DNA from: an uncultured delta proteobacterium
Lineage (GTDB): Bacteria > Myxococcota > Myxococcia > Myxococcales > 40CM-4-68-19
DNA: 64,000 nt
Reading direction: 5' to 3'
NCBI GenBank assembly: GCA_903911145.1
Contig: CAIWCD010000014.1
Span: 124,001 to 188,000 of the forward strand
In this document: positions 1 through 57,020 of the stretch, piece by piece
How the letters are laid out: each line of letters opens with the position of its first letter
Numbering within the stretch: the first letter of the stretch is position 1
The notes under the pieces: generated by a model
Databases searched by the model: none
Told to the model about the DNA's origin: nothing
The model's input: the letters and a program-made list of their open reading frames with translations, nothing else
Made by a program: the position numbers and the translations under genes

Positions 1-1
1 C

Positions 2-686: not shown

Positions 687-721
687 GCGACCGCGGCTCC
701 TCACACGTTTGCTTCACGCCA

Positions 722-11708: not shown

Positions 11709-12136
11709 ACAAGCCCTATCCGCCAGTGTCCGAACTGCTTCCGCACAAGGCGCCGATGATCCTCATAGATGAGATCCTCGAGCTCACCGAGACGGCCGTG
11801 CGCTCGCGCGTTTTGCTGACTGATCAGTCACCATTCGTGGAGGACGGCGCAGTGCCGTCGCTGGTGAGCATCGAGTACATGGCGCAGAGCATCGCGGCCT
11901 TTGCTGGCGCAACGCGCAGGGAGAAAGGCGAGGCGGTGATTCGCGGTTATCTGATCGCCTGCCGCGAGATGACGATGGCGGTCGAGTCGCTCGCGGTCGG
12001 GGACGAACTCGAGGTCGTCGCTACGCAGGTCTGGCACGACGAGAAGCTGGGCAATTTCGATTGCTCGGTGACGCGGCGAGGTGAGACAGTCTCGCGCGCG
12101 TGGCTGAGCGTGTACCAGGGTGATCTCGAACTTTGA
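11705..12136 (+). CDS. 3-hydroxyacyl-ACP dehydratase (ApeP-like)
   Basis: A 143-residue single hotdog-domain protein. LLPHKAPMILIDE near the N-terminus and SIEYMAQSIAAF in the middle match the dehydratase group of aryl-polyene clusters. In the studied APE system two hotdog proteins form a heterodimeric dehydratase; the likely partner here is the C-terminal domain of the fused ligase at 722-2449. The ATG sits on the stop of the preceding gene. Confidence 0.85.
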   Translation: MNKPYPPVSELLPHKAPMILIDEILELTETAVRSRVLLTDQSPFVEDGAVPSLVSIEYMAQSIAAFAGATRREKGEAVIRGYLIACREMTMAVESLAVGDELEVVATQVWHDEKLGNFDCSVTRRGETVSRAWLSVYQGDLEL

Positions 12137-12873
12137 GCGGGGCAGCGAGAGTGAACGTCAGAGCGCTGATCACGGGAGGGAGCCGCGGCATCGGAGCGGC
12201 CATCGCCGATGCGCTCGCCGCGCAGGGCCATCCGATCGTCCTCAACTATCGTGAGAACCACGCGGCTGCGCAGGCCGTGAAGGCGCGCATTGAAGCTGCT
12301 GGCGGAGAGGTTTCACTTCTGCCGTTCGATGTTGCGGACCGCGCGGGGAGCGGTCGCGCGCTCGCATCGGTGCTCGAAGATCCGCGTCCGCTCGGCATCC
12401 TCGTCAACAACGCCGGCCTCGTCCGCGACGCAGCGTTCCCCGCCCTCGAGCCCGAAGATTGGGACCTCGTCACGCGCACAACGCTCGACGGTTTCTACAA
12501 CGTCACCCGTCCGCTGGTGATGCACATGGTCCATCACAAGTGGGGCCGCATCATCAACATCAGCTCCGTCTCCGGCGTGACCGGAATGCGCGGGCAGGTG
12601 AACTATTCGGCCGCGAAGGCAGGGCTCATCGGCGCGACCAAGGCGCTCGCGCAGGAGCTCGCCAAGCGCAACATCACGGTCAACGCAGTCGCGCCCGGCT
12701 TGATCGAGACCGACATGATCGCCGGCGTGCCGCTCGATCACGCGCTGCCGCTGATCCCGATGAAGCGTCTCGGGCAGCCGCAGGAAGTCGCCGCGGTGGT
12801 CGCGTTTCTCGCCAGCCGCGCTGCCTCGTACGTGACCGGGCAGGTGATCGGCGTGAACGGTGGACTCATATGA
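12133..12873 (+). CDS. 3-oxoacyl-ACP reductase (FabG/ApeQ-like)
   Basis: A short-chain dehydrogenase of about 246 residues. It has the cofactor motif TGGSRGIG, the NNAG strand and the catalytic Ser/Tyr-x3-Lys (NYSAAKAG). It ends in the FabG-like GQVIGVNGG. It reduces the ketoacyl-ACP made by the KS/CLF pair. Two starts are possible: TTG at 12133, four bases inside the dehydratase gene, or GTG at 12151, which gives a shorter FabG-like N-terminus. Confidence 0.88.
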   Translation: MSGAARVNVRALITGGSRGIGAAIADALAAQGHPIVLNYRENHAAAQAVKARIEAAGGEVSLLPFDVADRAGSGRALASVLEDPRPLGILVNNAGLVRDAAFPALEPEDWDLVTRTTLDGFYNVTRPLVMHMVHHKWGRIINISSVSGVTGMRGQVNYSAAKAGLIGATKALAQELAKRNITVNAVAPGLIETDMIAGVPLDHALPLIPMKRLGQPQEVAAVVAFLASRAASYVTGQVIGVNGGLI

Positions 12874-14096
12874 ACGGTCGCCGCGTCGTCATCACGGGGA
12901 TCGGGCTCGCGAGCCCGATCGGCAACTCTCTCGACGAGGTCTCGGCCGCGCTGCAGGCGGGTCGGCACGGGATCGTTCCGCAGCCGCAGTGGGACGCGTA
13001 CGGCGATCTCTCGACGCGTCTCGCGGGTCCTGTGCGCGGGGTCGAGTTCGCCAACTATCCGCGCAAGATGACGCGCACGATGGGGCGCGTCGGCCTGCTC
13101 TCGATGTTCGCGTCCGACGCCGCGGTCGCCGACGCCGGACTCAGCGAGAACGAGTTGACGTCGGGCGAGATCGGTCTTGCCTACGGCTCGACGCACGGCT
13201 CGAGCAGCGAGCTTGAGCAGTGGTGCCGCACGCTCTTCAAGAACGAGAGCTTCAAGGGGATCGCCGCCACGTCCTACTTGAAGTTCATGAGCCACACTGG
13301 AGCTGCGAATCTCGGCATGCACTTCGGAATTCGCGGCCGCATCATCACGACCTGCTCCGCGTGCGTGAGCTCGAGCCAGGCGATCGGCTACGGGTACGAA
13401 GCGATCAAGCACGGCCAGCAGGAGGCGATGATCTGCGGCGGCGCGGAGGAGCTGCACGTCACGCACGCCGGCGTCTTCGACATCATGTACGCCACCTCGG
13501 TTGGCTACAACGACCGGCCCGACCTGAGCCCGCGGCCGTTCGACATCAAGCGTGACGGCCTCGTCATCGGCGAAGGCGCAGGCACGGTCGTCCTCGAATC
13601 CTACGAGCGTGCGAAGGCGCGCGGCGCGAAGATCTACGCAGAGGTGATCGGCTTCGGCACCAACTGCGACGGCACGCACATGACCAATCCGTCCGCGGAA
13701 GGAATGGCCGGCGCGATTCGTCTCTGCCTGAAGGACGCGCAGCTGACGGGAGCGATCGACTACATCAACGGCCACGGCACGGCGACCGAGCTCGGCGACA
13801 TTGCAGAGAGCACCGCGACGCACCAGGTGCTCGGCGATGCGATCCCGTTCAGCTCCACCAAGAGCTACACGGGCCACACTCTCGGCGCGTGCGGCTCCCT
13901 CGAGGTGGCGTTCAGCATCGCGATGATGCGCGATGGATTCCTCGCGCCGACGCGCAATCTCGACGCGGTCGATCCGCGCTGCGCGCCGATCAACTACCTG
14001 CGCGATGGAGTGCGCAGCGCCAAGCCGACAACGATCATGAGCAACAATTTCGCCTTTGGCGGAATCAATACGTCGCTGCTGCTGCGCGCGGTGTAG
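12870..14096 (+). CDS. Beta-ketoacyl-ACP synthase II-like (ApeR-like)
   Basis: A 408-residue FabF-like ketosynthase. The nucleophile is most likely Cys165 in CSACVSSSQ, which aligns with the FabF ACTSG site; histidines lie in NGHGTAT and KSYTGH. It is a complete, apparently active enzyme. In APE systems this second KS (ApeR) is thought to act at initiation, joining the aryl starter to malonyl-ACP. The ATG overlaps the reductase stop by four bases. It ends the tightly overlapped part of the operon. Confidence 0.87.
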   Translation: MNGRRVVITGIGLASPIGNSLDEVSAALQAGRHGIVPQPQWDAYGDLSTRLAGPVRGVEFANYPRKMTRTMGRVGLLSMFASDAAVADAGLSENELTSGEIGLAYGSTHGSSSELEQWCRTLFKNESFKGIAATSYLKFMSHTGAANLGMHFGIRGRIITTCSACVSSSQAIGYGYEAIKHGQQEAMICGGAEELHVTHAGVFDIMYATSVGYNDRPDLSPRPFDIKRDGLVIGEGAGTVVLESYERAKARGAKIYAEVIGFGTNCDGTHMTNPSAEGMAGAIRLCLKDAQLTGAIDYINGHGTATELGDIAESTATHQVLGDAIPFSSTKSYTGHTLGACGSLEVAFSIAMMRDGFLAPTRNLDAVDPRCAPINYLRDGVRSAKPTTIMSNNFAFGGINTSLLLRAV

Positions 14097-14136
14097 CGAC
14101 GCCCCCTGGCCGCTGCGCCAGAGAGAGAGAACGAAC

Positions 14137-15354
14137 ATGGCGCTCCCGTCTTCGTGCGACGTGCTGGTCATCGGCGCTGGCCCCGCGGGTTCGACATCGG
14201 CTGCGCTGCTGCAGCAGGCCGGCTACTCCGCAGTCGTCGTCGAGAAGCAGAAGTTCCCGCGCTTCGTCATCGGCGAGAGCCTGCTGCCGCACTGCATGGA
14301 TCTGCTCGACGAGGCGAAGCTGCTCGACGCGGTCCGGGCGCGCAACTTCATCGTCAAGAGGGGCGCGCTCTTCCTGCGCGGCGACGAGCGGGCCGATTTC
14401 AATTTCGCCGAGCAGTTCACCAAGGGTTGGGATCACACCTGGCAGGTTCCGCGCGCCGACTTCGACAAGACGTTGGCCGATGCAGTGGAAGCGCGGGGCG
14501 TGCCGATCGCCTATGAGCACGAGGTCATCGCCGCGGATTTCAGCGGCGCGCCGAAGGTTACGATCGCCGACGCGCGCGGCAAGCAGCAGACCATCACGAG
14601 CCGTTTCGTGATCGATGCGAGCGGCTATGGGCGCGTGCTTCCCCGTCTGCTCGATCTCGAAGTCCCGTCGACGCTGCCTCCGCGCAAAGCGGTCTTCACT
14701 CACCTGCGCGGAGACAAACGCGACGGCGGCCCTGAGCAGAATCGCATCTGGATCGTCACTGTCGCTCCCGGCGGCTGGGTCTGGATCATCCCCTTCAGCG
14801 ACGGCACGACGTCGTTCGGCATCGTTGGCGGCCCCGAGGTCTTTGCCAATCTGCCGACCGATCACGTCGAGTGTCTGCGCACGTTGATCGCGAGCGACAA
14901 GAACTTCAATCGCCTGCGCGAGACGGAGTTCATCTTCGAGCCGCGTGTCATCGGTGGATACTCCTGCTCGGTGAAACAGTTGCACGGCCCCGGCTACTGC
15001 CTGGTCGGCAACGCGACCGAATTTCTCGACCCGGTCTTCTCCTCGGGCGTCACCCTCGCGCTCGAATCGGCGAACCGCGCGAGCAACACGCTCATCCGCC
15101 AGCTGCGCGGCGAGGCGGTGGATTGGGCCGTCGACTACGCGAGCTACATGGCGCGCGGCATCGACGTCTTCCGCACCTTCGTGATGGCCTGGTACGAGGG
15201 GACGCTACCGAAGATCATCTTCCAGCCGCGTTCGTCGGATTCGATCCGCCGGATGATCTGCTCGGTGCTCGCGGGCTACGTCTGGGATGAGAGCAATCCC
15301 TTCGTCGCGCAGCACCAGCGCAAGGTCGCGCAGGTCGCGCGTCTCGAAGCGTAG
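14137..15354 (+). CDS. Flavin-dependent halogenase-like FAD protein
   Basis: A 405-residue FAD protein. It opens with the dinucleotide-binding motif VIGAGPAGS and the RFVIGESLLP segment. The flavin halogenase signature WxWxIP is exact (Trp214, Trp216, Pro219). Lys74, in NFIVKRG, lies where tryptophan halogenases have their catalytic lysine. LDPVFSSGV near the C-terminus matches the family's flavin/substrate motif. The start is chosen by an AGAGAGAG stretch just upstream. Halogenated aryl polyenes exist (xanthomonadins are brominated), so pigment halogenation is a reasonable inference; a hydroxylase or other monooxygenase role is not excluded. Confidence 0.75.
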   Translation: MALPSSCDVLVIGAGPAGSTSAALLQQAGYSAVVVEKQKFPRFVIGESLLPHCMDLLDEAKLLDAVRARNFIVKRGALFLRGDERADFNFAEQFTKGWDHTWQVPRADFDKTLADAVEARGVPIAYEHEVIAADFSGAPKVTIADARGKQQTITSRFVIDASGYGRVLPRLLDLEVPSTLPPRKAVFTHLRGDKRDGGPEQNRIWIVTVAPGGWVWIIPFSDGTTSFGIVGGPEVFANLPTDHVECLRTLIASDKNFNRLRETEFIFEPRVIGGYSCSVKQLHGPGYCLVGNATEFLDPVFSSGVTLALESANRASNTLIRQLRGEAVDWAVDYASYMARGIDVFRTFVMAWYEGTLPKIIFQPRSSDSIRRMICSVLAGYVWDESNPFVAQHQRKVAQVARLEA

Positions 15355-15366
15355 GAACGCTCCCAC

Positions 15367-17589
15367 GTGCGGCTGCGCAGACGATCGATCGCGCCGCTGC
15401 TCCTCTGCGCTGCTCTTTCGGCAGCGCTTCGCGCAGAGCAAAGTGGGCCTGCGCCAACTGCGATCGCGGATGCAACGGCGAGCGTGGATGCGGGAAGCGC
15501 CATCGCGGCGTCGCTTCCTGGCGATGCTGGACCGTCCGATGATCCGGATGACGACGCGGTGGATGCGGGCCTCCCGACCGCGCCAGGCTTGAGCGCGAGC
15601 GTCGTCGGAGATCGTCTGCTGCCGAAGCTGCCGAGCGTCGACAAGAGCCCCGACGTGGGCCGCTACGAAGTGACGCGCGCAGATCTCAACCGCACGCCTG
15701 GCGCGATGGAGGACATCACGCGCGTCGTTGCGAACCTTCCCGGCGTCGTCGCCGATCCCGACCTGCTCGCGACACTCTTCGTTCGCGGCGGCGGCCCCGA
15801 TGAGCTCGGCGAATATCTCGACGGCGTCCCGCTCGATAATCCATTTCACCTCGGCGGCTTCGCCAGCGTCTTCAATCCGATGCTCATCGAGTCGGCCGAT
15901 CTCTCCGTCGGCGTGACGCCCGCGCGCTACGATCCGTCGCTCTCCGGCGCACTCGACGTGCACTACGCGACAGGTGAAACGGAGAAGTTCCACGCGCAGG
16001 CCGACCTCTCGATTCAAAGCGCGAAGGCGCTCATCGATACGCCGACCGGAATCGACGGTCTCTCTGTCGAGCTCTCCGCGCGCCGCACCTTCTTCGAACT
16101 CTACTTCGCCGCGATGCAGGCGCTCGGTGTCGTCGGGTCCAACTTCGTCGCGCCCGAGCTCACCGAGTACTTCGCGCGCGTCCATTACAAGCGCGGTCGC
16201 CATCGCATCTCGTTGAGCTACATGCGTACGTCTGACGGTTTCGCCGTGCTCGCCGCGAAGGGGAGCGACTCGTCTCTCTTCGGCTTCAGTGGCGGCGTCG
16301 CGCTCTCGGACATCCTCCAGCTCGGGTCGCTGCAGGACGTGATCGATCTCGGCCGATCGCGCGAACTCAAGCTCACCGCGGCTTTCACGCACGACGCCGA
16401 TTCGACGTCGGTCTCCGGCGACACCATCTTCCAGAGCCGCGTTGCCCGCTTCGAAGCGCTCGCGAGCGCGGATCTCACGCTGCCGTTCAGCGATGAGCAT
16501 CGCCTCCGCATCGGCGCCCAGTTGCGTCGACAGAGCTACACGTTCACCGGAGAGATCCCCGATGCGCGCGGCGTTCCGCCCTGGGCCGCACTTCCGCTCG
16601 TGAGCACAGGCGAGCCGTCGCTGCTGGTCAATCCGCGCATCTTCCGCACCGTCGCGGCTGTCTACGCCGAGGAGATGATCCGTCCGTGGTCGCCGCTCGC
16701 GCTTGAACTCGGCGGCCGCTTCGAGTCGATCACGCACGCGCACTCGATCTATTCGTTGCGCCTCGCCGCGTCGGTCGCGCTTCCCTCGACGACAGTGGTG
16801 AAGCTCGAGGCGGGCCTGGCGACGCAGCAAGTGAGCAACCCGCTGCTGCTCGATCCCGTCTACGGCAATGCGAATCTTCTCCCCGAGAGATCGCGCCAGC
16901 TCGTGCTCGGAGTCGAGCAGCCGCTGCCCTTTCGCGCGCTCCTGCGGGTCGAGGGATATGGCAAATGGCTCGACGATCTCGTAGTCAACCCCGACACCGA
17001 CGCAGGCGTCTCTTCGCTTCTTGCGGCCGGCCAGCCCGCGTATCAGAACCGCGGCACGGGAACCGCACGAGGCGTCGATCTCCTCTTCGTCGGCCGCACC
17101 GATCTCTTCTCCTACGGCCTGTCCGCGGGTCTGCTCTTCGCCGATCGGACCAACCCACTCGCGAGCGGTGTGCAGAGCTACGCGGCGCCGTGGGATCAGC
17201 GCTTCACCGCGTCGGCCAACGTCTCGACGACGATCTTCGATGCGTGGCTCTTGAGCGCGCGCGCGACGTTCCACACGGGCCGCCCGACGACTGCGGTGGA
17301 GTCATTCACGCGCGACGACACCAACCAGCGATATCTCCCTGTCTTCGGCGCGACCAACGGTGAGCGATATCCAAACTACTTCGACGCCTCGATCCGCGCG
17401 GAGCGGCGCTTCACCGCGTGGGGCATCAAATGCGCGTGGTATGCGGAACTGCTCAACGTCACCAACACGCAGAACGTCTTTCTCTACGTCTACGGCAGCG
17501 GCAACTACGCGAACTCAACGGCGCCGACGCTCGGGACGTTCAATCACCTTCCCATCCGGCCATTCTTTGGAATCCGCGGCGAATACTGA
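15367..17589 (+). CDS. TonB-dependent receptor-like outer-membrane barrel
   Basis: A 740-residue secreted protein starting at GTG, with a signal peptide (residues 1-22), an acidic/alanine-rich linker (about 23-75), a plug-like domain (about 90-200, with VANLPGVVAD, LFVRGGG and YLDGVPLDNP) and a long beta-barrel ending in aromatic FGIRGEY. The plug motifs match TonB-dependent receptors, but I see no clear TonB box. It follows the halogenase after 12 bases, so it may be co-transcribed with the pigment genes. The ligand is unknown. Confidence 0.75.
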   Translation: MRLRRRSIAPLLLCAALSAALRAEQSGPAPTAIADATASVDAGSAIAASLPGDAGPSDDPDDDAVDAGLPTAPGLSASVVGDRLLPKLPSVDKSPDVGRYEVTRADLNRTPGAMEDITRVVANLPGVVADPDLLATLFVRGGGPDELGEYLDGVPLDNPFHLGGFASVFNPMLIESADLSVGVTPARYDPSLSGALDVHYATGETEKFHAQADLSIQSAKALIDTPTGIDGLSVELSARRTFFELYFAAMQALGVVGSNFVAPELTEYFARVHYKRGRHRISLSYMRTSDGFAVLAAKGSDSSLFGFSGGVALSDILQLGSLQDVIDLGRSRELKLTAAFTHDADSTSVSGDTIFQSRVARFEALASADLTLPFSDEHRLRIGAQLRRQSYTFTGEIPDARGVPPWAALPLVSTGEPSLLVNPRIFRTVAAVYAEEMIRPWSPLALELGGRFESITHAHSIYSLRLAASVALPSTTVVKLEAGLATQQVSNPLLLDPVYGNANLLPERSRQLVLGVEQPLPFRALLRVEGYGKWLDDLVVNPDTDAGVSSLLAAGQPAYQNRGTGTARGVDLLFVGRTDLFSYGLSAGLLFADRTNPLASGVQSYAAPWDQRFTASANVSTTIFDAWLLSARATFHTGRPTTAVESFTRDDTNQRYLPVFGATNGERYPNYFDASIRAERRFTAWGIKCAWYAELLNVTNTQNVFLYVYGSGNYANSTAPTLGTFNHLPIRPFFGIRGEY

Positions 17590-21869: not shown

Positions 21870-22886
21870 ATGCAGCCTCGTCGCGCGTCTGCGCTCGTTG
21901 CGGTCGCGCTGCTGCTCTCGCTCGCGCGGGTGGCGGGCGCGCAGACGCCGACTGCGCGGAGGATGGTGCAGCTCGACTATCGGCTCGAGTTCATCGAGGC
22001 GGGATGCCCGTCGGAGCGCGATCTGCGCGCGATGGTGTCGGTGCAGCTTGGATACGATCCGTTCGAGGCGTCGGCTCGCGAGCGTGCGCGCGCGTCGATT
22101 GCGCGCAGAGGAGAGCGGCTCGTCGGTGAGGTCGCGCTGTTCGATGAGGCGGGTCGCACGCTGGGCTTGCGCAATCTCGATGCGGCGAGTGGCTCGTGCA
22201 ACGCGCTGGCGCAGACGCTTGCGCTCGATCTGGCGATCGCGATCGAGCCCGCGGTGCTGCTGCGCGCGGTCGCGGTTCCGTCTGGCGATGCTGCTCCCGA
22301 GCCGACTCCGGTGCAGTCGACGAGTGCAGAGCCCGCAGCTGTCTCGGCTGCACCGGTGCTTCGCGAAACTCCACCGGAGCCGACGCACGCGATTCGTCCG
22401 AGCCAGTGGAGCCTGCAACTTGGCGCGCTGGGCGAGACGGGGTTGATGCCGTCGATCGCAGCAGGGGTCTCTCTCGTCGGCGAAGCGCGCTGGCACAACA
22501 CCAGCGCGGCGCTTGAGGCGGAGCTGTTTCCGTACAGCAGCGTCCCGGCCGCGGGAGGGAGGATCCGCTCGATCCTCACGCGCGGAGGGCTGCGCGGCTG
22601 CCAGTACCTGGGGCCATTCGGGTTCTGCGCGCGGCTTGACGGCGGCGTGTTGCACGCAGGAGCGCAGGGCATCGTCAACGCGCAGCATGGCTCGCTGCCC
22701 GCTGCGTCCGCGGGCCCGGTTCTTGTCGCGGGCTTTCGTCCCGCCGGAAACTTCACGCTCGGCCTGGGCGCCGCGCTCGATGTCGCACTGCTGCGCAACA
22801 CGCTGTTCATCAACGGCGTCCAGCAATGGCGCGCGCCTCCCTTCGCATTCGCCGCGAGCGCGTCGGTGGGCTGGATCTTTCCGTGA
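21870..22886 (+). CDS. Secreted protein of unknown function upstream of ECF sigma factor
   Basis: 338 residues with a signal peptide (1-26, ending VAGAQ). A first domain of about 90 residues with two Cys (GCPSERDL, GSCNALAQ) is followed by an alanine/proline-rich linker and a C-terminal domain rich in short glycine/hydrophobic strands ending in WIFP. That C-terminus resembles a small outer-membrane beta-barrel. I do not recognise the family. The following sigma gene starts at its end, so it belongs to the same operon and may be an envelope sensor or target. A GTG at 21846 is an alternative start. Confidence 0.6.
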   Translation: MQPRRASALVAVALLLSLARVAGAQTPTARRMVQLDYRLEFIEAGCPSERDLRAMVSVQLGYDPFEASARERARASIARRGERLVGEVALFDEAGRTLGLRNLDAASGSCNALAQTLALDLAIAIEPAVLLRAVAVPSGDAAPEPTPVQSTSAEPAAVSAAPVLRETPPEPTHAIRPSQWSLQLGALGETGLMPSIAAGVSLVGEARWHNTSAALEAELFPYSSVPAAGGRIRSILTRGGLRGCQYLGPFGFCARLDGGVLHAGAQGIVNAQHGSLPAASAGPVLVAGFRPAGNFTLGLGAALDVALLRNTLFINGVQQWRAPPFAFAASASVGWIFP

Positions 22887-22921
22887 CGGATTCGGCGTCT
22901 CGCCCCAAACCAGGTGCAGCA

Positions 22922-23458
22922 ATGCCGCGTTCGCACTCTGACGTGCAGACACAGTTCACCGCCGCCTATCGGCAGGAGTTCTCGTACGTGTGGAAGACGC
23001 TTTCACGTCTGGGCGCGCGGCCGACTGCGCAGGAGGACCTCGCGCACGACGTCTTCGCGACGGCGTTTCGCCATTGGGAGAGCTACGACAGCGCGCGGCC
23101 ACTGCGGCCGTGGCTGTTCGGGATCGCGTACCGCGTGGTGCTCGACTGGAAGCGCAAAGCGCAGAACACGCGGGAGAGCGCGTCCGATTCGATCGAGCTG
23201 ACGGACAGCGCGCCGAGTTCGGAAGAGAAGGTCTCTCGTGAGCAGGGGCTCGCGCTCGCCCGTGGCGCGATCGAGGCGCTCGAGATCGATCGTCGCGCTG
23301 TCTTCATCATGCATGAACTCGACGAGCAGCCGATGCCCGAGGTGGCCGAGGCGTTGGCGATTCCGCTGAACACGGCCTACTCGCGCCTGCGGCTCGCGCG
23401 TCGCGATTTCAATGCGCGCGTGGCTGCGCTGCAAGAGAGCAGAGGAGGTGCGCGATGA
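22922..23458 (+). CDS. ECF-subfamily RNA polymerase sigma factor
   Basis: 178 residues from the ATG at 22922, with sigma region 2 (LAHDVFATAFRHWESYD ... RPWLFGIAYRVV) and region 4 (EVAEALAIPLNTAYSRLRLAR, a helix-turn-helix). An AGGTG site five bases upstream supports this start. A GTG at 22883 overlapping the previous stop is the alternative. ECF factors usually respond to envelope signals and are held by a membrane anti-sigma; the next gene, overlapping by four bases, is the candidate. Confidence 0.85.
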   Translation: MPRSHSDVQTQFTAAYRQEFSYVWKTLSRLGARPTAQEDLAHDVFATAFRHWESYDSARPLRPWLFGIAYRVVLDWKRKAQNTRESASDSIELTDSAPSSEEKVSREQGLALARGAIEALEIDRRAVFIMHELDEQPMPEVAEALAIPLNTAYSRLRLARRDFNARVAALQESRGGAR

Positions 23459-24516
23459 GCGTGCACGATCTCGATGAGCTGAGCCAGGATGCGAAAGAGC
23501 TGCTCGCGATGGAGAAGTCGCAGCCGGAGCCGAGCGGTCTGCCTGATGAGCGCGTCTTCGCGCGGCTCTCGCTCACGCTGGGGCTTGCGCCCGCGGCTCT
23601 CTCTGGCGGCGCCGCTGCCACGGCCCATGCGGCGTCCTCTGCAACGGCAAACGCGGCTGCACACGCGACAGCAGCGGCAACGCGTGTGGGGATCCTCAAG
23701 GCATTGATTGCCTCGAAGGTCGGCGTCGCGATCGCGGCCGTCTCGATCGGTGCGGTCGCGGGTGGCGTGGTCGCCGTGCGCGCGGTGAAGCGTTCGGCGA
23801 TGCGCGAAGAGATTGCGCAGACGATCGATGCCGCACGCGTGCGTCCGTCCGTTCCCATGCGCACCACCAAATCTCCGAGCGCCGTGACGATTCCTGCCCC
23901 GCCCGCGACAGCGCCAGATCTCGCCCAGACTGTCCTTGCGCATGCTTCAGCATTGCCGCCGCGCACCGCCTCCTCCTCGGATGGAACGGCGCCCACGAAG
24001 TCTGCTGCGCCCGTTGCGCCGCGTGCAGCTGCACCGAGCGCGTCGACGACTGCCCGAGCGAGTGCGACGGAGCGGACGGTTGCGATGCTCGATGCGCTTC
24101 CTGCTCCTCTCGAAAACCGGCCTGCCGCAGCCGCTCCTCTTGCGACGGCCCTGCCTGCCCCGCGTGGTGTCGCGAGCGATTCGCCCATGATCGGTACACC
24201 GTCGGTTGGCTCCGCAAACCCACGCCCCGCGCAGGCGAGCGCCGATTCGCTCTCCGCCGAGACTGCGCTGCTGCAGTTCGCGCACGCGTCTCTGTTGCGC
24301 GGTGATCCGCAAGCTGCGCTCTCGTCTCTCGATGCGCACGCGCACGATCATCCCGCGGGACGTCTGAGCGAAGAGCGCGATGCGATGCGCGTGCAGGTCC
24401 TCATGCAGCTCGGCCGCACGGCAGAGGCGCGCGCGGCTGCGGCGGCGTTCCGCGTGCGCTATCCCGACAGCCTGCTGCGCGCGAGCGTCGACGCGGCAAT
24501 CGCGCACGCGCCGTGA
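23455..24516 (+). CDS. Membrane protein, probable anti-sigma-like regulator
   Basis: 353 residues. A cytoplasmic N-terminal segment (about 1-70) is followed by a hydrophobic helix (about 80-108, VGVAIAAVSIGAVAGGVVAV), a long alanine/proline-rich periplasmic linker and a C-terminal helical region (about 260-353) with TPR-like spacing (ALLQFAHASLLRGDPQAAL). Its position after an ECF sigma gene and its topology suggest anti-sigma control. No zinc-binding anti-sigma motif is visible, so this is context-based. A MIGTP peptide at 24187-24201 recurs in the helicase gene. Confidence 0.6.
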   Translation: MSVHDLDELSQDAKELLAMEKSQPEPSGLPDERVFARLSLTLGLAPAALSGGAAATAHAASSATANAAAHATAAATRVGILKALIASKVGVAIAAVSIGAVAGGVVAVRAVKRSAMREEIAQTIDAARVRPSVPMRTTKSPSAVTIPAPPATAPDLAQTVLAHASALPPRTASSSDGTAPTKSAAPVAPRAAAPSASTTARASATERTVAMLDALPAPLENRPAAAAPLATALPAPRGVASDSPMIGTPSVGSANPRPAQASADSLSAETALLQFAHASLLRGDPQAALSSLDAHAHDHPAGRLSEERDAMRVQVLMQLGRTAEARAAAAAFRVRYPDSLLRASVDAAIAHAP

Positions 24517-24575
24517 CGGATCGCACGCGTCGCCACAAAGAGGAGGCGGACCTCATCGTGTCGAAGGTGAATCGC

Positions 24576-26993
24576 ATGCGCCTGTTCCGCTCGCTCGCTC
24601 TCTCTGCCGTCGTTGCAATCACGCTCGCCGCTTGCGGAGGCGGCACGCTCGACCTTGGCGGGGCCTGCGCATCGACGTCGCTCGCGACCATCTCCCCGAC
24701 GAGTCCAATCGTCGCCGACGGCCGCGCGCAAGCCACGGTCACCGTTCGCGCGAACAACTGCCAGGGCTTTCCCGTCGCGGGCCTCAACGTCGTGATCAGT
24801 GCGCCGGGCGCGGGAGTCACGACCCGCCAACCTCCCGCCACCGACGCAAGTGGACTTGCGATCGGCTCGATCGCGTCCACGGTCGCAGGTGTGAAGGACG
24901 TCTCGATCTTCATCGATGGCGTCGCTCTTCCGCAGGCGTTGCACGTCACGTTCATTCCCGCGCCCGAGACGCAACTCGCCTTCACGGTGCAGCCCACAGG
25001 CACGCAGGCCGGCGCGGCGATCACTCCTTCAATTCAAGTGAGCGTCGAGGATGCGGCGGGGAACATCGTCACGACGGCGACAGACGCGATCACGCTGACG
25101 CTCGCTTCGGGATCAGCGGCCCTGACCAACACGACAGCAAACGCAGTTGCGGGCGTCGCGACGTTCACGGGGTTCTCTGTTCTGCAAGCAGGCACAGGCT
25201 ACCAACTCACTGCCAGCGCGAGCGGCCTCTCGAGCGCGGTGAGCGCGCCGTTTGCGATCACCAGCGGCATTGCCTCGCAGCTCGTCTTCATCGTCCAGCC
25301 TTCGAACACGCAGACCCACACCGTGATCTCGCCGGCCATCGAGGTCGGAGTCGAGGACAACCTCGGCGATCTCGTGAGGGGCGCTACAGGGGCCGTGACG
25401 CTCGCGATCGGCACACGCGGCAGCGCTGGCATTCTCATGGGGACCGTGACGCAACCGATCGTCAACGGCATCGCGACGTTCGACGACCTGGCAATCACCG
25501 GGGCAGGAAATGGCTACACGCTCGTCGCGACCGCATCTGGCGCGGGCGCGACGCTCGCAGGTGCGGAGAGCCACGCGTTCAACGTCGCGGCCGGTCCTCC
25601 CAGCCGGACAGCGTCCACCATCGTTACATGCATCGATCCTGTCGTCGCGGACGGAGTCTCGATGTGCACGATCACCGTGACGGTGGTGGACGGCGACGGT
25701 GCTCTGCTCGTCGGGGCCCCGGTGGACTTCAGTGCGGACGGGCTGGGAAATCTCTTCAGCGCGACGCAGGGGGTGACCGGCGCGGGCGGCACCTTCACCG
25801 TCACGCTCGCCTCGACGCACGCAGGGACCAAGACGATCACGGCCACCGTCGGCGCAGGCGCGGGCGCATTCAATCTTGTCGCCAGCGCCGCATTCATCGC
25901 CGGTTCAGCGTGCGCAGCAGGCAGCGCGATTGGCGCGACGCCGTCTCAGGGCATCGCGGCGGACGGAGTCCAGGGGGCCAACGTGACCGTCACGGTGGTC
26001 GACTGCCAGGGCAATCCAGTTGCGAACGAGGCCGTCGCGCTCAGTGCAGATGGCTCCTCAAATGCCTTCACGAAAGTAGGCGGGGTCCCGTCCTCCAGCG
26101 CGACTGGCCAGACCGGCATCGACGGAACCTTCACCGCGTCTCTCTCGTCGCTCACGGCAGAGAAGAAGACCGTGACCGCGACGGTGGGCGCGTCGAACAA
26201 CGTGTCGCTCACGACGTTCGTGACCTTCGTGGCGCCGCAGCCGACGCAGCTGGCGTTCCTGGTGCAGCCCAGCTCTTCTCAAGCGGGAGCGAGGATCGCA
26301 CCGGCGGTGAAGGTTGAGGCAACCGACAATTTCGGAGTGCTCGTGCCCACCGCCTCAGGTTCGATCATGCTCTCCATCGTCACGAGCGGCGGCTCTGGGA
26401 CTCTGTCGGGAACGATGACCAAAGACCTGATCGGGGGGATCGCGACGTTCGACGATCTCGCGATCAGCGGCGCAGGCAAAGGGTACGTGCTCTTCGCATC
26501 GTATCCTCTGCGGGAAAGTCCCTTCGCGGAGAGCTTCCCCTTCGACGTAGATTCCGCGTCGACCGATGGAGGCGCAGTCGCCGCGACCGACGGTGGCTCT
26601 CTGCCTGGCATTGCATGCGCCTCAGATACGGTGCTGACCGTATCCCCTCCGCAAGCGCCAGCGGACGGCACCACTGCGATTGCGCTGCTCCTCTTCGCGA
26701 AAGATTGCAACGGTCACGCGGCAGCGGGTGTGTTGGTTTCGCTGTCGGCGACGGGCGCGGGTGACTTGCTCAGCCTGCCGACCGCCGCGAGCGGATCGTC
26801 TCTCACCGTAGCGGGCGTGACTGGCGCGGACGGATCGTTCAGTGGGTGGCTCTCGACGTCGATCGCCGAGACCAAAGTGATCAGCGCGACGGTTGGCTCT
26901 ACCCCGTCTGCATTCTCGCTCTCGGCCGACGTGACATTCTTCGCTCCCGTCGACGGAGGCTCCGCGGGCGGAGGAGATGCCGGTCCTCCTTGA
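24576..26993 (+). CDS. Large lipoprotein with Ig-like (Big_1/invasin-type) repeats
   Basis: 805 residues. The signal peptide ends in a lipobox (ITLAAC), so the protein is probably lipidated at Cys. The rest is repeated beta-sandwich units of two alternating kinds: units of about 100 residues starting TQLAFxVQP, and units with ATVTVxxxNCQGxPVA signatures typical of bacterial Ig-like domains in adhesins. No enzyme motif is present. It closes the ECF sigma operon and could be a surface adhesin or a sigma-controlled target. The ATG at 24576 has AAGGTG six bases upstream; a GTG at 24558 follows a perfect AGGAGG at longer spacing. Confidence 0.75.
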   Translation: MRLFRSLALSAVVAITLAACGGGTLDLGGACASTSLATISPTSPIVADGRAQATVTVRANNCQGFPVAGLNVVISAPGAGVTTRQPPATDASGLAIGSIASTVAGVKDVSIFIDGVALPQALHVTFIPAPETQLAFTVQPTGTQAGAAITPSIQVSVEDAAGNIVTTATDAITLTLASGSAALTNTTANAVAGVATFTGFSVLQAGTGYQLTASASGLSSAVSAPFAITSGIASQLVFIVQPSNTQTHTVISPAIEVGVEDNLGDLVRGATGAVTLAIGTRGSAGILMGTVTQPIVNGIATFDDLAITGAGNGYTLVATASGAGATLAGAESHAFNVAAGPPSRTASTIVTCIDPVVADGVSMCTITVTVVDGDGALLVGAPVDFSADGLGNLFSATQGVTGAGGTFTVTLASTHAGTKTITATVGAGAGAFNLVASAAFIAGSACAAGSAIGATPSQGIAADGVQGANVTVTVVDCQGNPVANEAVALSADGSSNAFTKVGGVPSSSATGQTGIDGTFTASLSSLTAEKKTVTATVGASNNVSLTTFVTFVAPQPTQLAFLVQPSSSQAGARIAPAVKVEATDNFGVLVPTASGSIMLSIVTSGGSGTLSGTMTKDLIGGIATFDDLAISGAGKGYVLFASYPLRESPFAESFPFDVDSASTDGGAVAATDGGSLPGIACASDTVLTVSPPQAPADGTTAIALLLFAKDCNGHAAAGVLVSLSATGAGDLLSLPTAASGSSLTVAGVTGADGSFSGWLSTSIAETKVISATVGSTPSAFSLSADVTFFAPVDGGSAGGGDAGPP

Positions 26994-27101: not shown

Positions 27102-27374
27102 CTACGCGACGACCTGTGTCCCCGCCGGCAGCAGCTTCGCGAGCGCGTCGCGCAGATCGCCCACGGTGCGGATGCGCGAGAGCTCCTCGTCGGGAATGCG
27201 CACCGAGAGCTTCTCCTCGAAGTAGCTGACGAGCTCCATCACCGCGACCGAGTCCATGCCCAGCGTCGAGATGACCGTGTCCTTGGTGAGGTTCGCGAGC
27301 TTGCGGTTGTCGACTTCGAGAGCGGCCTGGGTGAAGAGCTCGAGCACGTTGACGGTGTTGCCAGTGGCGGTCAT
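27102..27374 (-). CDS. Acyl carrier protein of fatty-acid-modifying cassette
   Basis: 90 residues with the phosphopantetheine site Ser42 in GMDSVAV. The ATG at 27374 follows a GAGG site and is preferred; an in-frame ATG at 27401 would add nine residues. It ends the - strand run ligase-methyltransferase-ACP and is the likely acceptor of the acyl-adenylate made by the ligase. AT-rich ATCGAAT repeats lie just upstream (27404-27432). Confidence 0.85.
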   Translation of the reverse strand: MTATGNTVNVLELFTQAALEVDNRKLANLTKDTVISTLGMDSVAVMELVSYFEEKLSVRIPDEELSRIRTVGDLRDALAKLLPAGTQVVA

Positions 27375-27401
27375 GGATTCCTCAGCAGAAGATTCGATCA
27401 T

Positions 27402-27462
27402 GCGATTGTCGAAATTCGATAAGATTCGATAACGGCGCTTGGATCAGACTGGGCGCGGGTTT
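27402..27462 (-). promoter_or_regulatory. AT-rich region with ATCGAAT repeats upstream of ACP gene
   Basis: Within 61 bases the - strand reads ATCGAAT twice in close series, with a third copy inside the extended ACP reading frame and a related TTCGACAAT between. It is much more AT-rich than its surroundings. It lies between the methyltransferase stop and the ACP start, so it may be an operator or a promoter giving the ACP separate expression. No known regulator site is recognised. Confidence 0.3.
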
Positions 27463-28356
27463 TTAGTCGATCCGCTTGAGCGCGTACTGCGCGAGCGACT
27501 GGTAGTGCTTCTGGAATCCAGTCACGCAGGTCGAGAGGTAGCGGACGTAATCGTCGAAGACCTTGTCGCCGTACTCAGCGCGAATCTTCGTTTCGTGCTG
27601 CTGCAGGCGCTCAAGCCAGATCGCGGTCGTGCGCTCGTAGTGCATCCGGCGCGTCTTCACTTCGACCACTTCCCAGTAGGGATTGACGGCCGTGATGATC
27701 TCCTCGAGGCGCGGCGTGATGCCGCCCGGGAAGATCTCGTAGGTGACCCAGCCGATGTCCTGCACGTCCTTGCGCACGCGCGGCACGAAGTTGCGCAGGA
27801 TCGTCTGCAGACCGAACCAGGCACCCGGCTTCGTCCACTCGTGCGCGAGGCGGAAGTAGTTGCGATAGGCGGCGATGCTCTTGCCGTCGCGCGCCTCGGC
27901 GGGGCTGACGATGTGCTCCATCATGCAGATGGAGACGATCGCGTCGAACTTCTCCGTCGGCTTGTAATCGAGATAGCTGCAGACCTCGGCGGTGACGCCC
28001 GGGATCGCGCGGCGGCGGATCTCCGCGCACTGCGCCTCCGAGAGCGTGATGCCGTGTGCGCGCGCCTTGTTGGTGAGCGCCTGGTACTCGACGTTCGCGC
28101 CCCAGCCGCAGCCGATGTCGAGCACGCGCGCGCCGGGCGTGACGTGCGCGTAGCGGGAGAGCACCGCGAGTTTGTTGAGTTGCGCTTTCTCGAGGGAGAT
28201 CGAAGCGTCGACCGCATCCGCATCGTCGGCGTCGAAGAGGTGCGCGGCGGGCGTGAAGACACCGCACGTGTAGTTCATCCGCTCGTCGAGCCAGAGGCGG
28301 AAGAACTCGTTGGCGACGTCGTAGCTGACTGCGATGTCTGACTTGCTGGAGCCCAT
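27463..28356 (-). CDS. Cyclopropane-fatty-acid synthase-family SAM methyltransferase
   Basis: 297 residues. The start YDVANEFFRLWLD, then MNYTCGVF, the SAM site VLDIGCGWGAN and the ICMMEHI segment (acidic/metal or bicarbonate region) match CFA/mycolic-acid methyltransferases. It lacks the N-terminal domain of E. coli Cfa (382 residues) and is the size of the mycobacterial ACP/lipid-acting enzymes. It adds a methylene or methyl group across an alkene. Its ATG follows the ligase stop with no gap, so the substrate is probably the unsaturated acyl group handled by this cassette. Confidence 0.85.
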   Translation of the reverse strand: MGSSKSDIAVSYDVANEFFRLWLDERMNYTCGVFTPAAHLFDADDADAVDASISLEKAQLNKLAVLSRYAHVTPGARVLDIGCGWGANVEYQALTNKARAHGITLSEAQCAEIRRRAIPGVTAEVCSYLDYKPTEKFDAIVSICMMEHIVSPAEARDGKSIAAYRNYFRLAHEWTKPGAWFGLQTILRNFVPRVRKDVQDIGWVTYEIFPGGITPRLEEIITAVNPYWEVVEVKTRRMHYERTTAIWLERLQQHETKIRAEYGDKVFDDYVRYLSTCVTGFQKHYQSLAQYALKRID

Positions 28357-30231
28357 TTACTTTCCTCTCGAAGTTGAGTCGTGCGGGCGAACCTTGCGCG
28401 CCCAGCCGCGTGCGGTGTGCTGCATGCGGCCCACCAGAGATTTCGCGAGATGCTTTGCGACGAGCAGGCGCGAGCCCATCCCGCCGAGGGTGCGAACGCC
28501 CTCTTTGCCGAGCTTGCCGGAGAGATACTGCTCGCGCGTTTTGCGCCGCTGCAGCTTGCCAGACGAGGTCTTCGGCAGCGCGCCCGGCTGGACGAGCTTC
28601 ACGTCGGCGACAGCGAGCTGCAGCTCTTCATTCACGCGCGCCTTGATCGCGGCGATGAGTGCGTCGGCGCGCTCTGCGATCTCGCGCGATTCGAGCGCGA
28701 CGACCACTTCTTCGCTCGACGGACCGGGGCGCGAGAAGACGACCGCAGAGCCCTTGCGCACGCCCGGAACTTCCTCGACGCACCACTCGATCCGCTGAGG
28801 ATAGTAGTTGCGTCCATTGATGATGAGGATGTCCTTGAGTCGGCCAGAGACGTAGCACTGGCCATCGGCGATGTAGCCGAGATCTCCGGTGCGCAGCCAG
28901 CCGTCACCGTCGGGGCCCATGCCTGCGCGCTTCGACGCTTCGGGATCGTTGTAGTAGCCGGCCGCGACGCTCTCTCCGCGGAAGCAGATCTCGCCGACGC
29001 TGCGTTCGCCGAGAACTGCGCCTTGCTCATCAATGATGCGCAGCTCGTGTCCCGGAAACGTGCGGCCACACGAAACGACTTCGAGCAGCTCGGTCTTCTT
29101 CTCGGTGCGTTTCGCGAGGCGATCGCCGTGATACGCGCCCGCATCGATCGCGTCGGTGGAGAGCGTCTCGTCGAGACCAATGAAGGCCATCGCGAGCGTC
29201 GCCTCGGCCATTCCGTAGGCGGGGAGCATCGCGGTGGGCTTGAGTCCCGTGGGCGCAAACGTCTCGACGAACGCGCGCACCGTGTGCGGATTGATCGGCT
29301 CCGCGCCGCAGCCGAAGACGCGCATCTGCGAGAGATCCCACGACGCAATCTGCTCGGGCTTCGCTCGCTTGTTGACGAGCGCGTAGGCGAAGTTCGGCGC
29401 GAACGAGATGGTGCCCTTGTGCTTGCTGATCGTCGCGGGCCAGAGCGTCGCGTTCTTCACGAAGGAAAGCGTCGGGATGAACACGACAGAGACTGTCGCC
29501 GTGATCGGCGCGAGCACGAATCCGATCAGTCCCATGTCGTGATACAGCGGCAGCCAGCTGACGCCCTTGTCGATGCTCGGATCCGCGCGCAGCCCGTCCC
29601 GGATAATCGCCTTGCAGTTGGCCGCGAGGCTCTTGCGCGTGACCATCACGCCCTTGGGCAGCGACGTCGAACCCGAGGTGAACTGCAGGAACGCGAGCTC
29701 CTCGGGAGCGACGGCGGCCTTCGTCTGCGCGAGCGGCGCGACGCCGTCGGGGATCGGCTTGCCCAATTGCTTATCAAGGACAAGTTTCTCCAGCGACGGC
29801 ACCTTGCCCATCGCGCCCCAGAGCAGCTGCTCGACCTTCTCGCCCGCGACCAGCACGCGCGGCTTGGCGACGTTCAAGATGGTGACAAGACCTTCCATGA
29901 ACGCGTCGAGCTTGCCGAGCGACAGAGGAGGGTAGAGCGGCACCGGAACCATCCCGGCCCACATCGCGGCGAGGAACGTCGGCACGAACTGCTCGCCGTC
30001 CGGCACCACCAGCGCGACGCGATCGCCCTTCGAAAGCCCGAGCGCCTTCAAGTGATGCGCGCGCTTCTGGATCTCTGCGCGCAGCGCGTGGAACGAGAGG
30101 AAGAGATCGCTGTTCGCGTCGCCCGCCCCGACAAACGTGAAGCCGCGCTCGTGCAGTCCTTCGCAAGCGTCGAGCGCGTCGATGACGTCCACCGACGCGT
30201 GCGTGCGCTGTCCGTCAGGCGCGTCGCTCAT
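28357..30231 (-). CDS. Fatty-acyl-AMP ligase (FAAL)
   Basis: 624 residues. The P-loop LQFTSGSTSLPKGV is the form typical of FAALs (about residues 170-185). GWLRTGDLGYI and a C-terminal KTSSGKLQR lysine complete the adenylate-forming fold. FAALs activate free fatty acids and load them on ACP rather than CoA. It heads the - strand trio with a methyltransferase and an ACP and faces a divergent desaturase, an arrangement close to the JamA/JamB/JamC cassette. Confidence 0.87.
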   Translation of the reverse strand: MSDAPDGQRTHASVDVIDALDACEGLHERGFTFVGAGDANSDLFLSFHALRAEIQKRAHHLKALGLSKGDRVALVVPDGEQFVPTFLAAMWAGMVPVPLYPPLSLGKLDAFMEGLVTILNVAKPRVLVAGEKVEQLLWGAMGKVPSLEKLVLDKQLGKPIPDGVAPLAQTKAAVAPEELAFLQFTSGSTSLPKGVMVTRKSLAANCKAIIRDGLRADPSIDKGVSWLPLYHDMGLIGFVLAPITATVSVVFIPTLSFVKNATLWPATISKHKGTISFAPNFAYALVNKRAKPEQIASWDLSQMRVFGCGAEPINPHTVRAFVETFAPTGLKPTAMLPAYGMAEATLAMAFIGLDETLSTDAIDAGAYHGDRLAKRTEKKTELLEVVSCGRTFPGHELRIIDEQGAVLGERSVGEICFRGESVAAGYYNDPEASKRAGMGPDGDGWLRTGDLGYIADGQCYVSGRLKDILIINGRNYYPQRIEWCVEEVPGVRKGSAVVFSRPGPSSEEVVVALESREIAERADALIAAIKARVNEELQLAVADVKLVQPGALPKTSSGKLQRRKTREQYLSGKLGKEGVRTLGGMGSRLLVAKHLAKSLVGRMQHTARGWARKVRPHDSTSRGK

Positions 30232-30362
30232 GCGAAACCTCCACCAAGGCCGAAAAGGGGCACGTCGATAGCTGCCCGATGAAGACTCGTCAAGCGTGCG
30301 ATTGTCGGGAAAGAGGCACTCTGCTAGGCGTCGCCGCGCAACGAGACGAGAGGAGCGCCCCG
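30232..30362. promoter_or_regulatory. Divergent promoter region between FAAL and desaturase
   Basis: 131 bases between two divergent starts. Both promoters must lie here if the genes are expressed from their own sites, which would allow shared control of the cassette. I see no clear -35/-10 pair. The AGAGGAG ribosome-binding site of the desaturase is at about 30349-30355. Confidence 0.45.
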
Positions 30363-31349
30363 ATGGCCGCAGGCACTGTCCGCACCGGCAAAGAGCTGAT
30401 CGACGCCACCCGACCGTTCGCGCAGGAGAACCTCTTGCGCTCGTGGTGGGCGCTGGGCAGCACCTTCGCGCTCATCTTCGCTGGCGTGTTCGCGCTCGCG
30501 CAGCCGCTCCCCTGGCCGATTCGGCTCGCTCTCGCCGTCGTTCAGTCGCTCCTCGTGGTGCGCGGATTCGTCCTCTATCACGACCATGTGCACACAGCTC
30601 TTCTGCGCGGCTCTCCTCTGGCGCGCGCGATCTTCTGGTCGTTCGGTGTCTGGGTGATGGCGCCGCCCAACGTCTGGCGCGAGACGCACAACTACCATCA
30701 CGCTCACAACGCGAAGATCGTCGGTTCGCACATCGGCTCGTATCCGGTGCAGACGGTCCAATGGTGGAAGAGCGCGACTGCGAATGAGCGCCGCCTCTAC
30801 GCCTTTATTCGCCATCCGCTGACGATCCTCTTCGCCTATTTCACGGCATTCCTCCTCGATATGTGCGTGCTCGCGTTTCTGCGCGGCAAGAAGAAGCGCT
30901 GGGATTCGCTCTTCGCGATCGTTCTCTTTGCCGCGCTCGCCACCGTTGTGATCGGTCGCTTTGGATTCGCCGTCTGGGCCTGGGCGATCTTCCTGCCGCA
31001 CTTCATCGCCGCCATGCTCGGCGCTTATCTTTTCTATGCGCAGCACAACTATCCCGGCGTCCTGCTGCAGCCGCGCGAACTCTGGGCCTACGACCGTGCC
31101 GCGCTCGAGTCGTCGAGCTTCATGGAGATGGGGCCGGTGATGAACTACTTCACCGGGAACATCGGATATCACCATATCCACCATTTGAATCCCGGTATCC
31201 CGTACTATCGGTTGCCTGAAGCGATGGCCGCGATCCGCGAGCTGCAGTCGCCGGGCCGCACCAGCCTTTCGCCGAGTGGAATTCGCGCCTGTCTCGCGCT
31301 CAAACTCTGGGATCCGGACGCCGGCGAGATGGTCGGATATCCCGCGTAG
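30363..31349 (+). CDS. Membrane-bound fatty acid desaturase
   Basis: 328 residues with several hydrophobic helices and the three histidine clusters of di-iron membrane desaturases: HDHVH (73-77), HNYHH (109-113) and HHIHH (270-274). The start is set by an AGAGGAG site eight bases upstream. It probably introduces the double bond later modified by the cyclopropane synthase-like enzyme. Close relatives include JamB-like desaturase/acetylenases that act on ACP-bound chains; which substrate carrier is used here is not shown by sequence alone. Confidence 0.87.
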   Translation: MAAGTVRTGKELIDATRPFAQENLLRSWWALGSTFALIFAGVFALAQPLPWPIRLALAVVQSLLVVRGFVLYHDHVHTALLRGSPLARAIFWSFGVWVMAPPNVWRETHNYHHAHNAKIVGSHIGSYPVQTVQWWKSATANERRLYAFIRHPLTILFAYFTAFLLDMCVLAFLRGKKKRWDSLFAIVLFAALATVVIGRFGFAVWAWAIFLPHFIAAMLGAYLFYAQHNYPGVLLQPRELWAYDRAALESSSFMEMGPVMNYFTGNIGYHHIHHLNPGIPYYRLPEAMAAIRELQSPGRTSLSPSGIRACLALKLWDPDAGEMVGYPA

Positions 31350-31375: not shown

Positions 31376-32068
31376 CTATCGCGGCGATCTCAGGCTTCGC
31401 GCCCTCGGAAGGATCACCGCGAGGATCATTCCCGCGAGAAATCCGCCGACGTGGGCCCACCAGGCGACGCCGCCATTCAAGTCACGGCCCATCGAAAGCA
31501 GGCCGCTGCCGAACTGGGCGAGAAACCAGACCGCGAGGAAGACGACCGCGGGGATCTCGACGATCCACGGGAGGAAGAAGATGGGGATGAACGTCATGAT
31601 GCGGGCGCGCGGGAACGAGACGAGATAGGCACCGAGCACTCCCGCGATCGCGCCGCTCGCGCCGATCGTCGGCACCGGCGAGGCGGGATCGAAGAGGCAT
31701 TGCAGGAGGCCCGCGGCGATTCCGCAGAGCAGATAGAAGGCGAAGAAGCGCACGTGCCCGAGGCGATCCTCGACGTTGTCGCCGAAGACCCAGAGGTAGA
31801 GCAGGTTGCCCAAGAGGTGCAGCCAGCCGCCGTGCAGGAACATGCAGGTGACGAGCGGCAACAGGCGCCAGAGGCTCAATGGCGAGCCGCCGATCGCGAC
31901 CCACTGCATGAAGCGCTCTGGCACGAGGCCGTACGCGAAGAGGATCTTCTCGAGGAACGCGGGGCTTGCGCTCAGCTCCCGCGTGAAGACGAGCAGGTTG
32001 GCCGCGATCAGCGTGACCGTCGCGATCGGAAAGCTGCGGGAGCGGACAGTGTCGCGCAGTGGGATCAA
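31376..32068 (-). CDS. Rhomboid family intramembrane serine protease
   Basis: 230 residues, about six to seven transmembrane helices. The catalytic pair is Ser138 in GASG and His206 in AHVGG; Asn88 in HLLGN stabilises the transition state. It cleaves membrane-protein segments within the bilayer. Its 3' end faces the desaturase and it starts 18 bases after the helicase ends. No obvious substrate lies nearby. Confidence 0.88.
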   Translation of the reverse strand: MIPLRDTVRSRSFPIATVTLIAANLLVFTRELSASPAFLEKILFAYGLVPERFMQWVAIGGSPLSLWRLLPLVTCMFLHGGWLHLLGNLLYLWVFGDNVEDRLGHVRFFAFYLLCGIAAGLLQCLFDPASPVPTIGASGAIAGVLGAYLVSFPRARIMTFIPIFFLPWIVEIPAVVFLAVWFLAQFGSGLLSMGRDLNGGVAWWAHVGGFLAGMILAVILPRARSLRSPR

Positions 32069-55628: not shown

Positions 55629-55661
55629 AGCGACGTTGATTCTCTCGAGATCGCGGTGCGG

Positions 55662-57005: not shown

Positions 57006-57020
57006 GGCGGCAGAGCTCCT

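Follow-up and report, generated by a model that had tools for sequence, protein, structure and literature searches.

A 64,000-nucleotide stretch of contig CAIWCD010000014.1 from an uncultured delta proteobacterium of the Myxococcales (C14:124001-188000, hereafter the window) carries a cassette of four genes, coding for an acyl carrier protein (ACP), a short methyltransferase (MT), a fatty acyl-AMP ligase (FAAL) and a membrane fatty acid desaturase (DES). Analyses of the contig and of related genomes indicated that these genes probably form one half of a pathway to a sphingoid-like amino-lipid, namely the half that loads the starter and tailors the tail; all the chemistry is predicted from sequence. 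Chain extension and release would be performed by the product of a gene located on the same contig outside the window, a polyketide synthase (PKS) fused to an alpha-oxoamine synthase (AOS).

A PKS-AOS gene collinear with the cassette

In several relatives of the window genome, a protein of 2,100-2,300 aa is encoded beside the FAAL, MT and ACP genes. Pfam analyses of this protein revealed ketosynthase (KS), acyltransferase (AT), ACP, ketoreductase (KR) and dehydratase (DH) domains and a C-terminal Aminotran_1_2 domain, i.e., an AOS. Used as a query against the window genome, the AOS domain matched a copy of 83% identity on the contig of the window, encoded by a single fused gene about 4.5 kb before window base 1 (C14:112046-119524; coordinates in this region are those of contig C14). 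The domain order of its 2,492-aa product is KS-AT-(ACP)-KR-DH-AOS, and no enoylreductase (ER) domain was detected in it. The KS motifs DAACSSA and THGTAT/NVGH, which contain the catalytic Cys and His residues, are present, as are GHSLG and HAFH in the AT domain, HQLAGQPVLP in the DH domain, and SKSL (the lysine motif) and DEAH in the AOS domain. The internal ACP, a domain not scored by Pfam, has its GFDSL motif, and the AT, judged by its family, is of the malonyl type. A gene for a reductase of the NAD-epimerase/3-beta-hydroxysteroid dehydrogenase (3-beta-HSD) type is divergent from the PKS-AOS gene and found at the same place in related genomes; the PDB relatives of this reductase are generic short-chain dehydrogenases/reductases and epimerases only.

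The best solved match of the AOS domain is serine palmitoyltransferase (SPT; 3a2b, E 1e-70), the next class being eukaryotic LCB2. Judged by its sequence, the combination of a PKS and an SPT-type AOS with intact catalytic motifs is that of the sphingoid logic of SgaAB, and the amino acid used by the AOS domain is probably serine, as predicted by analogy with SgaB (PMC12134224). The initial annotation of the cassette had reported no PKS or nonribosomal peptide synthetase module in the window. This was literally correct, the only KS genes of the window being type II genes of an aryl-polyene-like cluster (1-15.4 kb), but misleading, given the PKS-AOS gene just beyond its edge. That the cassette had no PKS user and an open purpose, as the same annotation had concluded, was not upheld. 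The contig itself encodes a PKS fused to an SPT-like domain, in an arrangement collinear with the cassette, and the two adjoin each other in relatives, so that the genes are far likelier to serve an assembly line for a sphingoid-like amino-lipid than to form a free-standing fatty-acid cassette.

MT orthologues were gathered from 60 related genomes and from a one-genome-per-species scan of about 85,000 species, which yielded 38 loci. In the co-location counts that follow, members of a family are not independent observations, and contig breaks in metagenome-assembled genomes (MAGs) hide some junctions. An MT orthologue was found in 25 of 145 genomes of the order. In a second family, the PKS-AOS gene is directly upstream of MT in all 18 MT-bearing genomes, with the AOS end about 45-170 bp from MT. 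In 16 of them the FAAL gene shares this contig at a distance of 7-9 kb; the other two are fragmented assemblies with FAAL on a different contig. Of the 7 MT-bearing genomes in the window's own family, 6 have the PKS-AOS gene, complete or cut off after its start by a contig edge, on the contig of MT, and the seventh has a contig break. The DES, FAAL, MT, ACP and PKS-AOS genes are contiguous, in this order, in two further myxobacterial MAGs (L055 and L056). In a distant MAG (L083), a run of MT, ACP, FAAL and DES is divergent from a gene for a stand-alone SPT-like protein (best PDB match SPT 3a2b, E 1e-81), and in one Micromonospora (L062) genes for MT, ACP and a soluble acyl-ACP desaturase precede a KS-AOS fusion. 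The latter (L062:1916-4915, 999 aa) is without AT, KR or DH domains.

The gene order in the window's family is rhomboid, (DES), FAAL, (MT), ACP and, after one to a few genes of which the reductase is usually one, PKS-AOS; order and orientation are unchanged in the window species. The rhomboid gene adjoins FAAL or DES in 10 genomes of this family, the window genome included. Among loci with a membrane DES the gene order varies: DES may precede FAAL, or the order may be MT-ACP-FAAL-DES, as in L071 and L083. The gene set is co-conserved in relatives, so the proposal that the four genes belong together, which the initial annotation had made dependent on such conservation, survived the comparison.

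Cassette proteins and predicted pathway

The four open reading frames are present and intact (Table 1). As first described, a FAAL, a short CMAS-like MT and an ACP are encoded in one minus-strand run, next to a divergently oriented gene for a desaturase with three His boxes, and Pfam, NCBIfam and motif analyses confirmed these assignments. The FAAL stop codon abuts the MT start with zero gap, and 61-88 bp separate MT from ACP, depending on the start codon of the latter. The ACP has an intact phosphopantetheine Ser within a GMDS motif, and its gene stays next to MT or FAAL at almost every locus that contains a FAAL.

Table 1. Cassette genes and conserved flank (window coordinates)
Feature	Coordinates	Strand	Description
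ACP, dedicated acyl carrier protein	27102..27401	-	99 aa from 27401 or 90 aa from 27374; PF00550 E 7e-10
MT, short CMAS/CFA-synthase-like SAM enzyme	27463..28356	-	297 aa; PF02353 CMAS E 2e-57
FAAL, fatty acyl-AMP ligase	28357..30231	-	624 aa; PF00501 E 3e-64 and DIP2-like AMP domain
DES, membrane fatty acid desaturase	30363..31349	+	328 aa; divergent from FAAL; PF00487 E 5e-27
Rhomboid-family membrane protein	31376..32068	-	Conserved locus flank; PF01694 E 2e-41

The top NCBIfam model for the ligase is fatty acyl-AMP ligase PRK09192 (E 3e-152, under the curated cut-off). Its best solved relative is the FAAL 3pbk, and their alignment runs past the YGMAE motif with short gaps only. By model ranking and by the segment that follows YGMAE, the ligase fits a FAAL, and transfer of the acyl group to ACP is predicted. 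In DES, the His boxes HDHVH, HNYHH and HHIHH are all intact; a search for PDB relatives of this protein found none. Its start at 30363 is more likely than that at 30279, because it has the better coding score and because alignments with the closest homologues begin at residue 3-10 of the 30363 form.

The methyltransferase (METHYLTRANSFERASE) is without the N-terminal phospholipid-binding domain of cyclopropane fatty acid (CFA) synthases. Its alignment with the CMAS domain begins at residue 5, and in the CFA synthase models the match does not begin before about position 105-119. By the criterion of a lipid-binding N-terminal domain, MT is not a phospholipid CFA synthase. It is closest to CFA synthases and to the mycolate cyclopropane and methyl synthases, and the mycolate enzymes are likewise without that domain (PMC11387697). 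We scored the residues of the bicarbonate site in 42 MT orthologues using the numbering of the Escherichia coli CFA synthase. The window MT keeps C139, E239, I268 and Y317, the last two of which are invariant over the set; position 139 is C in 34 and S in 8 orthologues, and position 239 is E in 14 and D in 28. The bicarbonate ligand H266 is replaced by Q in the window protein and in all orthologues (42/42). Since Q also occupies this position in two of three cyclopropane synthases of cotton (PMC3132707), the replacement does not decide between cyclopropanation and methylation. In a tree of the orthologues, the window protein falls in a supported clade with those of its own family, with basal relations uncertain.

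Gene content and order, the integrity of domains and active sites, and co-conservation are directly established, and they are consistent with the following pathway. FAAL would adenylate a fatty acid and load it onto the dedicated ACP. DES would then introduce a double bond, at which the CMAS-like enzyme would add a methyl or methylene group from S-adenosylmethionine (SAM), the timing and the carrier of these steps being our proposal. The single-module PKS (KS-AT-ACP-KR-DH, no ER) would add one malonyl unit, reduce it and dehydrate it to a 2-enoyl thioester. Release would fall to the fused AOS, which would condense the chain decarboxylatively with an amino acid (serine being the most likely) to give a 4-en-3-keto sphingoid base, and the divergent reductase would reduce the 3-ketone to yield a 3-hydroxy base. 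As a corollary, the Delta4 double bond characteristic of sphingosine would be supplied by a PKS dehydratase.

A more specific version of this pathway, a bacterial route to bases of the sphingosine type, is possible, though somewhat doubtful. In it, the Delta4 (4,5) double bond would be made by the PKS dehydratase instead of a sphingolipid desaturase. The tail would be desaturated and then methyl-branched or cyclopropanated on its carrier before assembly, converging on the methyl-sphingadienines of fungi. One FAAL-fed PKS-SPT line would operate in two families of the myxobacterial order, with the module reused elsewhere.

The DES-MT pair and alternative readings

DES sits between the rhomboid and FAAL genes, and MT between FAAL and ACP, i.e., at two separate junctions. 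Both genes are present in five genomes of the window's family (G000, G002, G007, G010 and G011). Four others (G003, G004, G005 and G009) have the FAAL-ACP-reductase-PKS/AOS core with neither of them, and G008 shows only the FAAL-ACP part of it. Among genomes in which both junctions can be seen, the two states are split 5:5 with zero mixed cases (Fisher p about 0.004, ignoring phylogeny), and both occur within one genus. G001 and G006, in which MT is present and the DES junction is hidden by contig breaks, are outside this count. In the clusters of Sorangium and at many other Polyangia loci, a soluble acyl-ACP desaturase (PF03405) replaces the membrane DES, and such a desaturase is also found in the cluster of two genomes of the second family (G048 and G136). 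As the pair co-occurs and a soluble acyl-ACP desaturase substitutes for DES elsewhere, the gene distribution supports, though it does not prove, a model in which MT would need the double bond made by DES, both enzymes acting on the ACP-bound chain. We also considered an invariant four-gene unit with a membrane DES. This definition proved too narrow, since about half of the window's own family lacks DES, many Polyangia have the soluble desaturase in its place, and in the second family it is unlinked.

The observations that weigh against the sphingoid-like pathway concern the amino acid, the substrate of DES and MT, and the location and distribution of the genes. AOS-fold enzymes can take amino acids besides serine. 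The same assembly line might use glycine, alanine or another amino acid, or its product might be a secondary metabolite of the alpha-amino-ketone type rather than a membrane sphingolipid. The PDB matches of the AOS domain span SPT, KBL, ALAS, AONS, CAI-1 synthase and cysteate acyltransferase, and the similarity of the reductase to NAD-epimerase/3-beta-HSD enzymes is generic. However, a bona fide bacterial SPT and then eukaryotic LCB2 head these matches, a stand-alone SPT-like gene stands beside the same four-gene set in L083, and the characterized PKS-linked AOS, SgaB, takes serine almost exclusively (PMC12134224). We regard another amino acid or another type of product as unlikely, though by no means negligible.

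DES belongs to a broad group of membrane desaturases, the nearest NCBIfam model being Delta5 desaturase DesA, and in the second family its homologues are located outside the cluster. Both observations would fit DES and MT acting on membrane phospholipids, with FAAL and ACP alone serving the PKS-AOS. Such a division of labor is rather improbable in view of the joint presence or absence of DES and MT inside the FAAL-ACP locus, of the acyl-ACP-family desaturase that fills the place of DES in other lineages, and of the missing phospholipid-binding domain of MT (PMC11387697).

In the window species, 30.4 kb separate the ACP gene from the reductase gene, an interval filled by the aryl-polyene-like cluster and other genes, and that cluster is physically closer to the cassette than the PKS is. 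The ACP-PKS gap is 2.1 kb in a genome of the same genus (L038) and about 9 kb in another member of the family (L039). As the gap differs in this way among relatives, the interval is a variable insertion zone, within which the edge of the window happened to fall.

The distribution of the genes also extends beyond that of the PKS-AOS. In Sorangium, Polyangium and Minicystis, the FAAL-MT-ACP genes occur without a PKS-AOS gene and are followed by a soluble desaturase and/or a FabF-like ketoacyl-ACP synthase (KAS). A PKS-AOS was sought in five Sorangium, Minicystis and Polyangium genomes and not found, with 32-33% AOS-fold matches only. MT orthologues without a FAAL orthologue were found at L057, L063, L074-L076, L079 and L080. 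As MT occurs elsewhere without PKS-AOS or without FAAL, it is not exclusive to the PKS-AOS pathway, and the Sorangium, Polyangium and Minicystis loci show that the loading and tailoring module has at least one use beyond it. A self-contained JamABC-like cassette that makes an ACP-bound unusual fatty acid for another user, such as a lipid acyltransferase or the aryl-polyene-like cluster, would agree with these loci and with the proximity of that cluster. It is nonetheless very improbable, the cassette being contiguous with or close to PKS-AOS in the window's family and order, with compact loci that have no aryl-polyene-like genes between the two halves. The aryl-polyene-like cluster as the main consumer was rejected, since in the compact relatives the cassette adjoins PKS-AOS and not those genes.

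The loci with FAAL-MT-ACP and a FabF-like KAS are L067-L070, L087, L088, L077, L078, L081 and L082, those of Sorangium having the soluble acyl-ACP desaturase in between. At L074, L075, L076, L079 and L080, an MT orthologue (about 55%) is part of another conserved set, with weakly GT87-like and unknown proteins and no FAAL or ACP.

Related systems and neighboring loci

The sphingoid-like pathway proposed here shares features with several characterized systems. PKS-derived sphingolipids are already known in bacteria from SgaAB of Pseudomonas fluorescens MYb115, in which a type I PKS feeds an SPT-type AOS to form sphingoid bases, with a ketoreductase gene nearby (PMC12134224). SgaA and SgaB are, however, separate proteins, and the PKS is described as iterative and yields saturated C24-C28 sphinganines, whereas the system proposed here has PKS and AOS in one protein, a FAAL with a stand-alone ACP, and genes for DES and a CMAS-like MT. 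The terms 'AMP ligase' and 'methyltransferase' are absent from the main text of the SgaAB paper (PMC12134224). In the Caulobacter aasR-cerR-acpR-spt set, a dedicated acyl-ACP synthetase likewise loads a dedicated ACP that feeds an SPT, and a reductase is part of the set, but the SPT is stand-alone, with no PKS extension, desaturase or methyltransferase (PMC9386255, PMC11324152).

The JamABC-type gene set (FAAL, ACP and desaturase) is present in the window, and the initial annotation had drawn this parallel. In jamaicamide biosynthesis, the fatty acid is attached to an ACP by a FAAL and modified by a membrane desaturase before the PKS extends it (PMC11837247). The analogy holds for this loading logic and is limited to it: the jamaicamide starter cassette has no methyltransferase and leads to a PKS/NRPS product, whereas the consumer proposed here ends in an AOS. 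In the mycolic acid pathway, the chains modified by CMAS enzymes are ACP-linked. These enzymes (CmaA/MmaA) and FadD32 resemble the cassette in combining a short CMAS without a lipid-binding domain with a FAAL; they differ in pathway and consumer, and in the H266 position, which is Q in the MT orthologues. The fungal sphingolipid C9-methyltransferase, a member of the CMAS family, and the Delta8 desaturase decorate the tail of the sphingoid base and provide a lead for the tailoring step, although they act on ceramide or its base and involve no FAAL or PKS.

A 2025 review of FAALs contains no occurrence of the terms sphingolipid, oxoamine or cyclopropane (PMC11837247). In the open literature searched, no description of a FAAL-fed PKS-AOS fusion with a methyltransferase was found, which is not proof of absence. 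The FAAL feed, the PKS-AOS fusion and the tailoring of the tail appear undescribed in the searchable literature. Genes for bacterial sphingolipids are usually sought by means of a stand-alone SPT, and an SPT fused to a FAAL-fed PKS would be taken for an orphan PKS and hence missed. From the locus a defined lipid class can be predicted, and the occurrence of core-only and core-plus-DES/MT genomes in one family offers a natural test of the contribution of tailoring, by lipid profiles or stepwise reconstitution. A sister use of this module for loading and tailoring is suggested by the FAAL-CMAS-ACP clusters of Sorangium and Polyangium.

The aryl-polyene/flexirubin-like type II cluster occupies positions 1-15400 of the window and reaches upstream to C14:123324. 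Its genes code for an acyltransferase, two ACPs, an acyl ligase with an ApeI-like domain, a GT2 protein, an LpxL-like acyltransferase, an aromatic amino acid lyase, a thioesterase, LolA-like, MMPL and DUF3261 proteins, KS proteins, an ApeP dehydratase, a FabG-like reductase and a FAD oxidoreductase. Beside the cassette, genes for an ECF sigma factor, a protein of unknown family and an 826-aa protein with Big_1/invasin Ig-like domains form one run (22826-26993). Further along (53100-59420), genes for an MMPL transporter, a class III aminotransferase and a 799-aa CDP-alcohol phosphatidyltransferase/GtrA/lipocalin-like fusion lie in a row and may represent a separate lipid locus.

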